A stretch of DNA of 64,000 nt from NCBI GenBank assembly GCA_913055685.1, contig CAJXKC010000003.1, forward strand, positions 62,001 to 126,000, in the 5' to 3' direction. The notes under the pieces were generated by a model, which was not told the DNA's origin, made no database searches, and worked only from the letters and a program-made list of their open reading frames with translations. Shown here piece after piece: positions 19,420 through 38,861 of the stretch (positions are counted from its first letter, which is position 1; each line of letters opens with the position of its first letter). The translations under genes were made by a program, and so were the position numbers. Source of the DNA: an uncultured Flavobacteriales bacterium (GTDB lineage: Bacteria; Bacteroidota; Bacteroidia; Flavobacteriales; Schleiferiaceae).

Positions 19420-20607
19420 TTAATCAGTGATTTCAGTAACCTGACCAGCACCTACGGTACGACCACCCTCACGGATAGCGAAACGTAGACCCTTGTTGAT
19501 GGCTACAGGAGCGATAAGCTCAACAGTGATTGATAAGTTATCACCTGGCATTACCATTTCAGTACCTTCTGGTAACTTGATCTCACCAGTTACGTCAGTT
19601 GTACGTAAGTAGAACTGTGGACGGTAGTTGTTATGGAATGGAGTGTGACGACCACCTTCTTCTTTCTTAAGGATATAAACCTCAGCTTTGAAAGATTTGT
19701 GTGGGGTGATAGAACCTGGCTTACAGATTACCATACCACGACGGATCATTGATTTCTCAATACCACGTAATAAGATACCTACGTTATCACCAGCTTCACC
19801 GCGATCTAAGATCTTACGGAACATCTCAACACCAGTAATGGTAGAGGTTAATTTCTCATCACCGAAACCGATAATGTCTACAGGGTCTCCAGTGTTAGCA
19901 ACACCAGTTTCGATACGACCAGTAGCTACAGTACCACGACCAGTAATAGAGAATACGTCCTCGATAGGCATCAAGAATGGCTTCTCGTTGTCGCGCTCTG
20001 GCTCTTCGATCCAAGTATCACAAGCATCCATAAGAGCCATTACAGTGTCTACCCATTTTTGCTCATTGTTCAATGCACCAAGTGCAGAACCTGAGATTAC
20101 AGGAGTTTCATCACCATCATACTCGTAGAAAGAAAGTAATTCACGTACTTCCATTTCAACTAGCTCAAGTAGTTCCTCATCGTCTACCATATCCACTTTG
20201 TTAAGGAATACAACGATTTTAGGAATACCTACCTGACGACCTAATAGGATGTGCTCACGAGTTTGTGGCATAGGACCATCAGTAGCAGCAACTACTAAGA
20301 TAGCTCCATCCATTTGGGCAGCACCAGTTACCATGTTCTTTACGTAGTCGGCGTGACCCGGACAGTCTACGTGTGCATAGTGACGGTTTGCAGTTTCATA
20401 CTCTACGTGTGCAGAGTTAATTGTAATACCTCGCTCTTTTTCTTCAGGAGCGTTGTCAATTGAATCGAAATCACGTTTTTCGGAAAAACCAGCATTAGCC
20501 AAAACATTTGTAATGGCGGCAGTCAAAGTGGTCTTACCGTGGTCAACGTGTCCGATGGTACCGATGTTTAAGTGCGGTTTGTTACGAACAAAAGTTTCCT
20601 TTGCCAT
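19420..20607 (-). CDS. tuf: elongation factor Tu
   Basis: 395 residues from the ATG at 20607 ([17 protein letters not shown]). It has a complete G domain with GHVDHGKT at residues 19-26, DCPGHADY and NKVDMVD, followed by domains II and III ending [13 protein letters not shown]-Tu delivers aminoacyl-tRNA to the ribosome. It follows four tRNA genes and precedes tRNA-Trp, as in the ancestral thrU-tyrU-glyT-thrT-tufB block. The 20 codons upstream of this ATG are open but unconserved and were excluded. Confidence 0.99.
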
Positions 20608-20671
20608 GGTTTGTGTCTTAAATATTAAAACTTCTACAATATAAGCGAGACCACTGTGGTCTTTCACTTAG

Positions 20672-21085: not shown

Positions 21086-21135
21086 GAACAATATTTAAAG
21101 AACCTTTTCAAAGAATTCACAACCTTAAAAAGTAG

Positions 21136-21209
21136 AGCCTGTGGAGGGATTCGAACCCCCGACCAGCTGATTACAAATCAGCTGCTCTGGCCAACTGAGC
21201 TACACAGGC
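21136..21209 (-). tRNA. tRNA-Thr (TGT anticodon)
   Basis: 74 nt. Acceptor GCCTGTG with CACAGGC, anticodon stem GCTGA/TCAGC with loop TTTGTAA, T-arm CGGGG/CCCTC with TTCGAAT loop, discriminator T. CCA is not encoded. It is the first tRNA of the block after the promoter. Confidence 0.96.
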
Positions 21210-21225
21210 AATTTATGGTCTCTAT

Positions 21226-21259
21226 AAAAAAAGAGCAGCCCGCTCTAAAAACGGACTGC
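21226..21259 (-). terminator. intrinsic terminator between hpf and the tRNA block
   Basis: On the minus strand GCAGTCCG (21259-21252) pairs with CGGGCTGC (21242-21235), one G-U, nine-base loop, followed by TC and seven T. Its 5' arm begins exactly at the last base of the tRNA-operon -7 box. Confidence 0.75.
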
Positions 21260-21288
21260 AAATGTAACAAGATTTGTTATTGCCACAA
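21259..21288 (-). promoter_or_regulatory. promoter of the tRNA-tuf-secE-rpo operon
   Basis: TTG (21288-21286), 19 bases, TACATTTG (21266-21259): an excellent match to the Bacteroidota sigma-A consensus. The predicted start point falls inside the 5' arm of the overlapping terminator hairpin. Confidence 0.75.
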
Positions 21289-21306: not shown

Positions 21307-21612
21307 TTAGGAGACTAATGCACGAGTTTTATCCTTGTGCTTAATTAGCAGTCTACGCAAGGCTTCAGTAGCCATATCAGCAGCTGCTTCAAATGATCTA
21401 TTTTGCTTTTTTACTACCAACTCATGACCCGGAATATGCAATTTGATTTCCGTAATCTTATTTTCCTTGTCGGATGTGTTGTCAACTTTCAGGAAAACCT
21501 CTCCACTAATAATGCTATCATTAAACAATTCTAACTTGTCGAGTTTAGCTTGGATGAAGTTGATCAATTTCACATCGGCAGTGAAATTCACAGACTGAAA
21601 AGTAGCTTTCAT
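21307..21612 (-). CDS. hpf: ribosome hibernation promoting factor (short form)
   Basis: 101 residues of the HPF/RaiA fold (MKATFQSVNFTADVKLINFIQAKLDKLELF... then AAADMATEALRRLLIKHKDK). It lacks the C-terminal dimerisation domain of long HPF. It binds the 30S decoding region to park ribosomes in slow growth. It is 5 bases after xerC, in a rpsU-xerC-hpf operon ending at a terminator just before the tRNA genes. Confidence 0.93.
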   Translation of the reverse strand: MKATFQSVNFTADVKLINFIQAKLDKLELFNDSIISGEVFLKVDNTSDKENKITEIKLHIPGHELVVKKQNRSFEAAADMATEALRRLLIKHKDKTRALVS

Positions 21613-21617
21613 AGATC

Positions 21618-22517
21618 TTAAGATTTATCAGCTCGAGGGTGAGCTTGGTTATACAATGATTTAAGCCTTTCAATGGAATTGTGAGTATAAACCTGGGTTG
21701 CTGCTAGCGAAGCGTGGCCTAAAAGTTCTTTTACAGAATTTAGATCTGCCCCCCTATTTAGCAAGTGACTGGCAAAAGAATGTCTAAGCACGTGCGGACT
21801 TCTTTTCTCAATTCCACTAACATAACTAAGGTACGCATTTACGCTATTGTAAACAAGCTTCGGATAGAGCTTTTTACCCTTACGACTAAGGAAAAAATAC
21901 GCTTCCTCTTCAGCAGTCTGAGCTGCAGGTCGATGCTCTTTTAAATAACGATCCAAATAAGTAATTAACGGACCTGAAATAGGAATCTCCCTCTGTTTAT
22001 TTCCCTTACCCAATACTCTAATGTAGGCACCTTCTTTCCTAAAGTCTTCCTGCTTAAGGTTAATCAACTCACTAAGACGAATTCCAGTCTGATAGAAAAG
22101 GTCTAAAATTAATCTTTGCGCATAGGCCCATGAATCATCTTGACTATAATCTTCACTTAAAAGCTCCAGCATCGAATCCTCCGGAACCACTCTTAGAAGT
22201 TTCTTTGGAGGCTTAGGGACATCTACTAAACCCGCCACATTCGTCTTAACCAAAGAGCGCCTCAGCATGAATTTATAAAAGGAACGCAGGGAACTTAACT
22301 TTCGTTTGATGGTGGTTCGAGCCAAACCCAAATCCACCAGATGCACTAACCAGGATCGCACCATACCTTTATGTACGGCACTTAAATCATCCTCCTGAAA
22401 GGCTTCTTCTAGGAAAGTCTCAAAAGACTTTAAATCGTTTCGATAGGCCTCAAGGGTGTGATCCGAGAAAGCCTTCTGATGATGTAGGTAATCTAAAAAT
22501 TGATCGCGGTAGGACAT
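21618..22517 (-). CDS. xerC: tyrosine recombinase XerC/XerD family
   Basis: 299 residues from the ATG at 22517 (MSYRDQFLDYLHHQK). It has an N-terminal SAM-like core-binding domain and a C-terminal catalytic domain with all active residues: TGIRLSEL (Arg), HVLRHSFASHLL (His-x-x-Arg), LLGHASL (His) and VYTH (nucleophile Tyr). Chromosome-dimer resolution at dif is the expected role, because the gene is single, lies among housekeeping genes and has no mobile context. No dif site was identified in the window. Its ATG immediately follows the T-run of the rpsU terminator. Confidence 0.93.
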   Translation of the reverse strand: MSYRDQFLDYLHHQKAFSDHTLEAYRNDLKSFETFLEEAFQEDDLSAVHKGMVRSWLVHLVDLGLARTTIKRKLSSLRSFYKFMLRRSLVKTNVAGLVDVPKPPKKLLRVVPEDSMLELLSEDYSQDDSWAYAQRLILDLFYQTGIRLSELINLKQEDFRKEGAYIRVLGKGNKQREIPISGPLITYLDRYLKEHRPAAQTAEEEAYFFLSRKGKKLYPKLVYNSVNAYLSYVSGIEKRSPHVLRHSFASHLLNRGADLNSVKELLGHASLAATQVYTHNSIERLKSLYNQAHPRADKS

Positions 22518-22556
22518 AAAAAAGCAAGGGAATGTAAAGATATACAAACCCTTGCT
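22518..22556 (-). terminator. terminator/attenuator between rpsU and xerC
   Basis: On the minus strand AGCAAGGG pairs with CCCTTGCT across an 18-base loop, followed by six T. The T-run ends at the xerC start codon. Confidence 0.7.
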
Positions 22557-22582: not shown

Positions 22583-22774
22583 CTATTCCTCTTCCTGACG
22601 CTTCTGCTGAATGTATGCCGCCTTAATGATTTCCTTACGACGAGATACAGAAGGCTTCACAAATTGCTTACGTGAGCGAACCTCTTTCATTACACCAGTG
22701 CGGTCGTATTTACGCTTGTAACGCTTTAATGCACGGTCGATAGATTCTCCTTCTTTAACTGAAATTACTAACAT
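22583..22774 (-). CDS. rpsU: 30S ribosomal protein S21
   Basis: 63 residues (MLVISVKEGESIDRALKRYKRKYDRTG...), highly basic, with the family's ALKRYKRK and SRKQFVKPS segments. S21 binds near the anti-Shine-Dalgarno end of 16S rRNA; in Bacteroidota it helps to sequester that end. It leads the rpsU-xerC-hpf operon from the palindromic promoter at 22798-22827. Confidence 0.97.
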   Translation of the reverse strand: MLVISVKEGESIDRALKRYKRKYDRTGVMKEVRSRKQFVKPSVSRRKEIIKAAYIQQKRQEEE

Positions 22775-37460: not shown

Positions 37461-38141
37461 ATGAAAAAAACAACTACCCTGATAGCTTTGCTCGCTATCC
37501 TTTTCTCTGGTTTTAATGCTGTCGCTGAAGGAGAAGACGATGATGATCGTCGTCGCCGAGGAGGAGGAAACTTTGGTGTTCACCTCAATCTACCGCCTAT
37601 GGCATTTGGCGTATTCTCTGGTAATGTGGAATATGGCTTTGCTAAAAACATGAGTGCGGTGATGAGCCTTGGCGGCATATACCGTAGCTTCAAATCTGAA
37701 CTCACCACTCCGAACGGAACAATTGAGAACGGTTATACCTATACTGGATTTATGGCTGCACCAGAATTTCGCTATTACGTAAAACCTAATCGTCGACCAG
37801 GTTTGGACAAATTTTTTATTGGTGGATATTTAAAAGTGCGTAGCATGTCTACCGGAGATTCAGCCTTTGCCTCAGTAAGGGTTACTCAAGACCCCAATGA
37901 TCCATTTAATATTACCACCGAAGAATTCAACTACGGGATAAGCTATTTTGGTTTATCAGCCGGAGTAAACTTTGGTTATGTGTATGCCATGAAATCGGGC
38001 CTTACCTTCAGTGGCTGGCTTGGTTTCGGATACTTCATCGTAAACAACGTTAAATACACCGTGGAGGATATTGACGCCGAATTCTCGGACTTCTTAAGCA
38101 TTGACCCACGTTTAGGAATTACCGTTGGTTATAGATTCTAA
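37461..38141 (+). CDS. outer-membrane beta-barrel protein, unknown function
   Basis: 226 residues. Signal peptide (MKKTTTLIALLAILFSGFNAVA), then a short acidic/basic linker (EGEDDDDRRRRGGG), then alternating amphipathic strands ending in the outer-membrane signature GITVGYRF with a C-terminal aromatic. The size suggests an eight-stranded barrel. It resembles the next gene in strand pattern and ending, so the two are probably diverged paralogues. A strong terminator separates them. Confidence 0.78.
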   Translation: MKKTTTLIALLAILFSGFNAVAEGEDDDDRRRRGGGNFGVHLNLPPMAFGVFSGNVEYGFAKNMSAVMSLGGIYRSFKSELTTPNGTIENGYTYTGFMAAPEFRYYVKPNRRPGLDKFFIGGYLKVRSMSTGDSAFASVRVTQDPNDPFNITTEEFNYGISYFGLSAGVNFGYVYAMKSGLTFSGWLGFGYFIVNNVKYTVEDIDAEFSDFLSIDPRLGITVGYRF

Positions 38142-38164
38142 TTCATTTCGAATCGAATAATTTT

Positions 38165-38193
38165 GGGGGAATCTTTTCGGATTCCCCTTTTTT
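38165..38193 (+). terminator. intrinsic terminator
   Basis: GGGGAATC (38166-38173) pairs with GATTCCCC (38180-38187), followed by six T. Confidence 0.88.
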
Positions 38194-38207
38194 GATTCCT
38201 TTAGCTT

Positions 38208-38861
38208 ATGCTTCGTTACCTCCTTATTCTACTCGCATTAATTCCTGGATCAGTTTGGGCTCAATACGATGAGTACCAAGAATTGGAACCTAGCCCTTCC
38301 CTATCCAGCTTAGATCTTCAAGCAAATGGTGTCTTTTTGGATGATAGTCCGAACTATGCCTTTGGTTTGTATTATAACCATAATGGAAACTTAAGTATCG
38401 GCTTTACCACAAGCTTATGTTCGGCACTTGAACAATCTAAACTCCCTTACTCCAGAGGCTTTCAGAGTATTTTTGAGTTTCGTCGCTATTTAAAATCAGA
38501 TCTCGGTAATCACCAAGGTTTTTACCTAGGAGCCTATCTCAACTTAAAGTACATGGACTCCGATAATGAAAAAGCCTTTGGTGGCTATAAAGAAAGTTAT
38601 TTTTGGTCCTGGAACGGGATGAATCGAACCGTATTACCCTATTATTACTCCAAGCAGTATTTTGGCATAGCTCCCGGATTAAGCATAGGCTATCAAAGGC
38701 CAATTGGTCCGAAGCTTTACTGGCAGGCTTGGTCACAAATCGGATACTTCCTTTTGCACGAAGAGCAGTTTAGCAATGAGCCGGTTGCCAGCCTCGATAC
38801 ACGCCCCGAGCTCAACCAGTTAGACCTGCGTTTAGCGATAGGCCTCAGTTACCGTTTTTAG
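38208..38861 (+). CDS. outer-membrane beta-barrel protein, probable paralogue of preceding gene
   Basis: 217 residues with a signal peptide (cleavage near VWAQ) and a barrel-like pattern ending LAIGLSYRF. Shared features with the upstream protein are FRRYLKSD/FRYYVKP, the FYLGAYLNLKYM/FFIGGYLKVRSM strand, YFGIAPGLSIGY/YFGLSAGVNFGY and the terminal aromatic. It begins 15 bases after the terminator. It converges on the next gene with a 4-base overlap. Function is unknown. Confidence 0.75.
   Translation: MLRYLLILLALIPGSVWAQYDEYQELEPSPSLSSLDLQANGVFLDDSPNYAFGLYYNHNGNLSIGFTTSLCSALEQSKLPYSRGFQSIFEFRRYLKSDLGNHQGFYLGAYLNLKYMDSDNEKAFGGYKESYFWSWNGMNRTVLPYYYSKQYFGIAPGLSIGYQRPIGPKLYWQAWSQIGYFLLHEEQFSNEPVASLDTRPELNQLDLRLAIGLSYRF

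Follow-up and report, generated by a model that had tools for sequence, protein, structure and literature searches.

A putative intrinsic terminator built onto the promoter of the tRNA-tuf-rpo operon in Flavobacteriales

The locus and the shared element

We analyzed a window of 64,000 nucleotides from an uncultured Flavobacteriales bacterium (GenBank assembly GCA_913055685.1, contig CAJXKC010000003.1, positions 62,001 to 126,000). On its minus strand, rpsU, a xerC-like gene and hpf are followed by an operon that opens with tRNA-Thr(TGT) (Table 1). Downstream of the element described here lie four tRNAs, tuf and tRNA-Trp. The later genes of this operon are presumably secE, nusG, rplK, rplA and rpo, names taken over in part from a first-pass annotation. 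Four proteins of the locus were tested against profile models.

Table 1. Genes and sequence features around the shared element, in the direction of transcription
Feature	Position in window	Strand	Basis
rpsU (S21), upstream, co-directional	22583..22774	-	TIGR00030, above cut-off
xerC-like tyrosine recombinase, upstream, co-directional	21618..22547	-	TIGR02224 best match, 314.8 bits, below cut-off of 335.15
hpf, end of the operon that the terminator would serve	21307..21612	-	TIGR00741, above cut-off
-33 TTG element	21286..21288	-	TTG 18-21 nt from box in 106 of 111 distinct orthologous leader upstream sequences (shuffled: mean 10.2, maximum 19)
-7 box TACATTTG, TAnnTTTG type	21259..21266	-	sequence; box of the Flavobacterium psychrophilum primary sigma factor (accessible part of PMC9723704)
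Terminator 5' arm GCAGTCCGTTT; first arm base is last base of -7 box	21249..21259	-	sequence and fold
Promoter-proximal CAGTCCG, putative discriminator and first transcribed bases, also within terminator 5' arm	21252..21258	-	persists in hairpin-less genera, e.g. f1 g16, g18; boxes of 16S leaders precede similar G+C-rich runs
Putative transcription start, about +/-2 nt	21254	-	from F. psychrophilum, where the box occupies -12 to -5
Terminator 3' arm GAGCGGGCTGC	21235..21245	-	sequence and fold; compensatory pair changes, alignment columns 14:30, 15:29, 17:27, 18:26
U-tract TCTTTTTTT	21226..21234	-	sequence
tRNA-Thr(TGT), first gene of downstream operon	21135..21209	-	tRNA call
tuf, downstream operon; listed ORF has early GTG start	19420..20667	-	EF-Tu models above cut-offs from residue 21 on

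Read on the minus strand, the box TACATTTG passes directly into GCAGTCCGTTT-TTA-GAGCGGGCTGC-TCTTTTTTT (21259-21226). The spacer between the TTG and TACATTTG measures 19 nt, and the TAnnTTTG box with a TTG about 19 nt upstream is the arrangement of a Bacteroidota primary-sigma promoter. The hairpin (21259-21235) comprises 11 pairs and the loop TTA and is followed by TC and T7 (21232-21226). Folding of the 34-nt RNA 21259-21226 gave -17.0 kcal/mol (z = -5.7), and none of 200 shuffled sequences was equally stable. These are the features of an intrinsic terminator, namely a G+C-rich stem of about 8-12 bp, a short loop and an adjoining U-rich tract, and the site lies 3' of a gene that needs an end, with 48 bases from the end of hpf to the stem. 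The first-pass annotation had claimed that the -7 box ends on the first base of the terminator's 5' arm. This is exact, as base 21259 is shared by both. A dyad, TTGCC-TATTGT-GGCAA, surrounds the -33 TTG (window 21295-21280, minus strand), and by eye similar short dyads are present in the same position in other genera of the family.

Comparison within and beyond the order

For the comparison, 124 leaders of tRNA-Thr(TGT)-led operons were assembled from 122 genomes (G), representing 50 genera (g) and 14 families of the order (f). Since g32 was entered twice, with two loci in different states, the 50 genera give 51 groups. In the family sample an HPF match was obtained for 77 of 88 genomes and 70 loci (L) were taken; G012, G013, G014, G048, G056, G058 and G072 were left out. 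In the order sample at least 147 of 156 genomes had a match among the matches listed, and 60 places were picked by hand for family spread. Excluded by hand before the screen were the duplicates L131, L135 and L156, ten loci that showed no such operon and loci of genomes already represented. Screening of 139 loci then removed 13 without a tRNA-Thr(TGT)-led operon and two without a box (L159, L160). A hairpin was scored as nested at an arm offset of 0-3, an energy of -9 kcal/mol or lower, a length of up to 43 and at least 6/8 U. The gap to hpf was limited to less than 100 nt, and a separate terminator was one of -11 kcal/mol or better. All cut-offs were chosen after the sequences had been inspected. 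The weak upstream hairpin of L011 (-9.6) was not scored as separate, nor did L075 and L079 (g16), whose hairpins are long and loose, score as nested.

The nested hairpin with its U-tract was found in 55 of the 124 leaders, from 27 genera and nine families (f1, f2, f3, f6, f8, f10, f13, f14, f15). Its register is fixed, as the arm begins 0-2 nt from the last G of the box in every one of the 55. The non-nested share comes largely from two heavily sampled genera, g16 (15 loci) and g18 (19 loci). Of 20 genomes searched for the sequence TACATTTGCAGTCCG, 13 contain it at exactly one site each and 7 lack it. A pattern scan returned 52 hits, seven of which were set aside (six from Desulfobacterota/Deltaproteobacteria and one from Clostridia, with neither hpf nor tRNA). 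The remaining 45 all have hpf upstream and 43 of them scored as nested; many are genomes of the G set and hence not independent. In the records of Nonlabens tegetincola JCM 12886, three contigs share one hpf-tRNA junction (L195, L217, L239), which may reflect either a duplication or an artefact of assembly.

Nesting was closely associated with hpf. Of the 34 genus groups in which hpf lies less than 100 nt from the box without a separate terminator, 27 are nested. Of the 17 in which it is absent upstream (10 groups), separately terminated (3) or farther off (4), none is. Conservation of the overlap in related genomes, proposed earlier as a check, is borne out by these counts. Fisher's test gave p = 2e-8, a value that overstates independence because the genera share ancestry. 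The agreement of 44 of 51 groups was reached by none of 20000 within-family permutations. In the four groups with hpf farther off, no strong separate terminator was found either. Where hpf lies apart from the tRNA operon, it is followed by an ordinary terminator of its own in eight of nine loci examined; after hpf in the ninth, L275, none was found. The genomes G096, G124 and G206, all non-nested, gave no hpf in genome-wide searches. Both states occur in genome G100, which has a nested operon linked to hpf and a further, non-nested tRNA-Thr operon that lacks hpf.

The arrangement is not obligatory, since seven groups with a close hpf have neither kind of terminator as scored (f1 g16, f3 g50, f6 g45, f11 g30, g37, g44, g47). 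One of these, f3 g50, carries a weaker 6-bp version. L298 (order family f6, outside the 34-group count) is non-nested with hpf close by. The Flavobacteriaceae record L231 scored as nested; its hpf lies 138 nt off and lacks a terminator of its own, so that the locus fits the idea but misses the 100-nt cut-off. In L215 and L219 the stem is retained and the U-tract was too poor to be scored. In f3 g41 the hpf link and the hairpin are both lost, yet a co-directional gene precedes, which we take to be xerC from the end of its translation, read by eye. The hpf frame of L173 (f14, genome G101), as scored, extends 3 nt into the promoter box.

Within the stem, double changes replaced C-G by U-A in both f15 rows and G-C by C-G in six rows (f8, f13, f14, f15). 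Two of five covariation measures were unexceptional: pairs changed on both sides were reached by 17 of 500 shuffles and further pair types by 73 of 500. Rows of the alignment (A1) were selected as nested, so that its 95.7% paired positions are given by construction and the evidence lies in the double changes; f6 g60 and identical segments were omitted from it.

The two arms differ in their persistence. GCAGTCCG is retained in genera without a matching 3' arm (f1 g16, g18), and CAGTCTC persists without a partner in f15 g43, where hpf is lacking. In the nine 16S leaders that were read (L101 was not among these), boxes are mostly followed by CCGCCC, CCGACC or CAGCC-like runs; L098 has CACTCCCC and L099 one CCCTCCC. 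In E. coli, G+C-rich discriminators are associated with stringent control. Because GCAGTCCG outlasts the loss of the hairpin, the shared arm, as judged from sequence, is primarily promoter sequence that resembles 16S rRNA promoters, and the 3' arm would be the added part. Ahead of the 16S rRNA, L097 and other 16S leaders carry several TAnnTTTG boxes in tandem, with a G+C-rich run after each of them.

Beyond the order, 47 of 60 genomes matched in a search of the phylum. It yielded 26 new loci, 21 of them with a Thr-led tRNA group under a looser rule; two, L280 and L281, are second copies from the own order. One of the 21 is nested. This locus, L276, belongs to another family of the class and has hpf upstream and different arms, CACTCCC/GGGAGTG. 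L277 has no hpf within its locus, and in L278 and L279 hpf is farther off and separately terminated. The remaining Thr-led operons have no hpf upstream, most of them lack a TAnnTTTG box within 250 nt, and none is nested.

Putative start site and alternative readings

In F. psychrophilum TAnnTTTG is the box of the primary sigma factor and occupies -12 to -5, according to the accessible part of PMC9723704. This would place the start of the own promoter near 21254 and leave GCAGU out of the RNA. The earlier claim that promoter-started RNA lacks about half of the arm agrees well with this, as 5 of the 11 bases of the 5' arm would be missing. With a start at 21254 the predicted fold has -5.8 kcal/mol and consists of a different 5-bp hairpin directly at the U-tract, and the remnant of the original stem ends several bases short of the T-run. 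RNA from 21256-21257 would retain more of the stem (-9.4 to -10.5 kcal/mol). When one representative of each of the 27 nested genera was folded from a start five bases past the last G of the box, the mean energy changed from -13.2 to -5.8 kcal/mol. Geometry and predicted folding support the further claim that such RNA would escape termination. Against it, the 5-bp hairpin at the U-tract might terminate weakly in the own genome.

We also considered that a promoter and a terminator overlap by chance in a short gap. When GCAGUCCG was kept constant and the bases after it were dinucleotide-shuffled, a nested terminator arose in 37 of 2000 sequences and an equally stable one in 1 of 2000. Among the 331 TAnnTTTG boxes in 464 kb of the own genome (the window and a 400-kb sample), six were nested under a looser criterion, the own site being one of them; shuffled sequences gave 12 hits in 2622, so that about 1.5 would be expected per 331 boxes, and another hit is present at window 38158. 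Taken from one genome alone, the overlap is suggestive only. It is lifted above chance by its conservation across genera, and a fixed register in 27 genera and nine families, the compensatory changes and the dependence on hpf make coincidence extremely improbable.

Besides the own site, two of the six hits are strong simple hairpins. At window 38158-38195 (plus strand), TAATTTTG leads into GGGGGAATC..GATTCCCC and T6. This overlap sits between tandem related genes (37461-38141 and 38208-38861), and for the downstream gene the genus has only distant homologues of 28-31% identity. In L254, near 16752 (minus strand), TACATTTG stands four bases ahead of a terminator of -29 kcal/mol that separates two co-directional genes, of which the second presumably resembles a sigma factor, going by its reading.

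Alternatively, the hairpin and the following GCTCTTT or GTTCTTT could provide the tRNA-tuf-rpo operon with a boxB-boxA antitermination leader like that of rRNA operons, in which the U-run would be boxA and not a terminator tract. In rrn antitermination leaders boxB precedes boxA, and the 16S leaders of the same genomes show a box, a G+C-rich run and then a GTTCTTTAAAATATTG-like sequence. GTTC[AT]TT is found in many tuf leaders, including those of the nested f1 g4, g8 and g9, with GTTCTTT at the U-tract, and in L215 the full stem leads into GTTCTTTAACATA, which would make a poor tract for a terminator. However, the pairs at the base of the stem are located 5' of the putative start, and readthrough RNA alone could form them; with a start at 21254 the lower five pairs would fall outside the operon's own transcript. 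Nor does an antitermination leader explain why nesting tracks a close, unterminated hpf. Most f3 genera have a plain-T tract and a boxA-like site after tRNA-Thr instead, and in L276 a GATCTTTGAAA-like site is separate, downstream of the T-run. The own genome carries GTTCTTTAAATATTG between tRNA-Thr and tRNA-Tyr (21103-21089, minus strand), which nearly equals the boxA-like GTTCTTTAAAATATTG of its own 16S leader. The sequence near the hairpin, GCTCTTTTTTT, differs from GTTCTTTAAAATATTG, and the only clear copy is that after tRNA-Thr. We regard this leader as unlikely. As the sole explanation it was rejected and ranked second, because the pairs upstream of the start and the link to hpf are left unexplained. 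In some genera (f1 g4, g8, g9; L215) a boxA and a terminator tract may have merged.

It is very unlikely that the hairpin acts as a conditional terminator (attenuator) on promoter-started RNA, whether by choice of the start site or through a small AGAGC/GCTCT hairpin. The stability kept by RNA from 21256-21257 and the 5-bp hairpin of RNA from 21254 would be in its favor. On the other hand, the nested stem is missing wherever hpf is absent, a loss not expected if it attenuated the downstream operon. By eye, the AGAGC/GCTCT hairpin is not generally retained in the other sequences of A1, and this version was rejected for want of a conserved alternative structure there.

Proposed function and comparison with known systems

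We consider it highly probable that the rpsU-xerC-hpf operon ends in an intrinsic terminator built onto the promoter, of the rRNA type, that serves the tRNA-tuf-rpo operon, with start, termination and escape as we infer them. The promoter's GCAGTCCG would serve at the same time as the 5' arm of the terminator, with the matching 3' arm and the U-tract coming next. Polymerase arriving from hpf would transcribe the complete stem and stop near 21226. Polymerase starting near 21254 would produce an RNA without GCAGU, of which a weak remnant of the stem would fall short of the U-tract, and would proceed into tRNA-Thr.

The first-pass annotation had concluded that the operon is thereby insulated from upstream readthrough. 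With respect to readthrough RNA this insulation, read from sequence, appears well supported by the comparison of genomes. The claim does not extend to the promoter itself, as polymerases from hpf would have to pass through the -33/-7 region before they stop, so that transcription of hpf may occlude the growth promoter. A further reading, which we regard as doubtful, makes the overlap a regulatory coupler as well as an insulator: each polymerase completing the mRNA of the hibernation factor hpf would briefly occlude the tRNA-tuf-rpo promoter and directly lower its starts, and the position of the start would exempt the growth operon from its neighbor's terminator.

If the terminator works as proposed, it would sort polymerases by their origin without any protein, borrowing the first bases of the next promoter as an arm. 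The arrangement is kept at one locus across much of the order and is lacking where the neighbor that it would serve is absent or has a terminator of its own. Such sites could be misread by annotation in which promoters and terminators are taken as distinct elements, and the design would offer a compact insulator for Bacteroidota. A literature search, with most subscription journals outside its coverage, gave no description of a promoter whose first bases form a terminator arm.

In its dimensions the terminator is ordinary. Mapped terminators of Zymomonas mobilis have means of about 11 bp, 4 nt and -17 kcal/mol in the accessible part of PMC7566282, and the 11-bp stem, 3-nt loop, -17.0 kcal/mol and T7 described here lie near these values. 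Its placement is less so. According to the accessible part of PMC12207403, the majority of intrinsic termination sites mapped in E. coli precede the next start by up to 200 nt, and a start inside the stem is therefore not the usual layout.

With the Bacteroidota rRNA-type TAnnTTTG promoters, the element has in common the -33 TTG, TACATTTG and, after the box, a run rich in G+C; 16S leaders from the same genomes show these features too. In contrast to these promoters, the run here pairs with a 3' arm as a putative terminator; in the nine 16S leaders hairpin-like repeats were noted by eye. Like rrn boxB-boxA leaders, whose elements are named in the abstract of PMC10250234, it has a hairpin and then a GTTCTTT-like site in the leader of a stable-RNA operon. 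It differs in that the lower stem lies upstream of the putative start and that many genera have a plain-T tract.

Two systems with closely spaced transcripts are also comparable. At Neisseria meningitidis cbbA-fHbp, an example of an intrinsic (Rho-independent) terminator lying between co-directional genes and described in the accessible text of PMC8026042, a hairpin and T-run in a short gap set the read-in to a next gene that has its own promoter. There the terminator and the promoter are separate, whereas here bases are shared and the downstream start would lie within the 5' arm. The Lactococcus lactis sRNA ArgX, whose promoter lies in another gene's 3' UTR, resembles the present case in that, of two same-strand transcripts, one begins just before the other ends (accessible part of PMC6586332). 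In contrast to ArgX, which uses the shared terminator, the inner start would here lie deep in the arm and the new RNA should escape.
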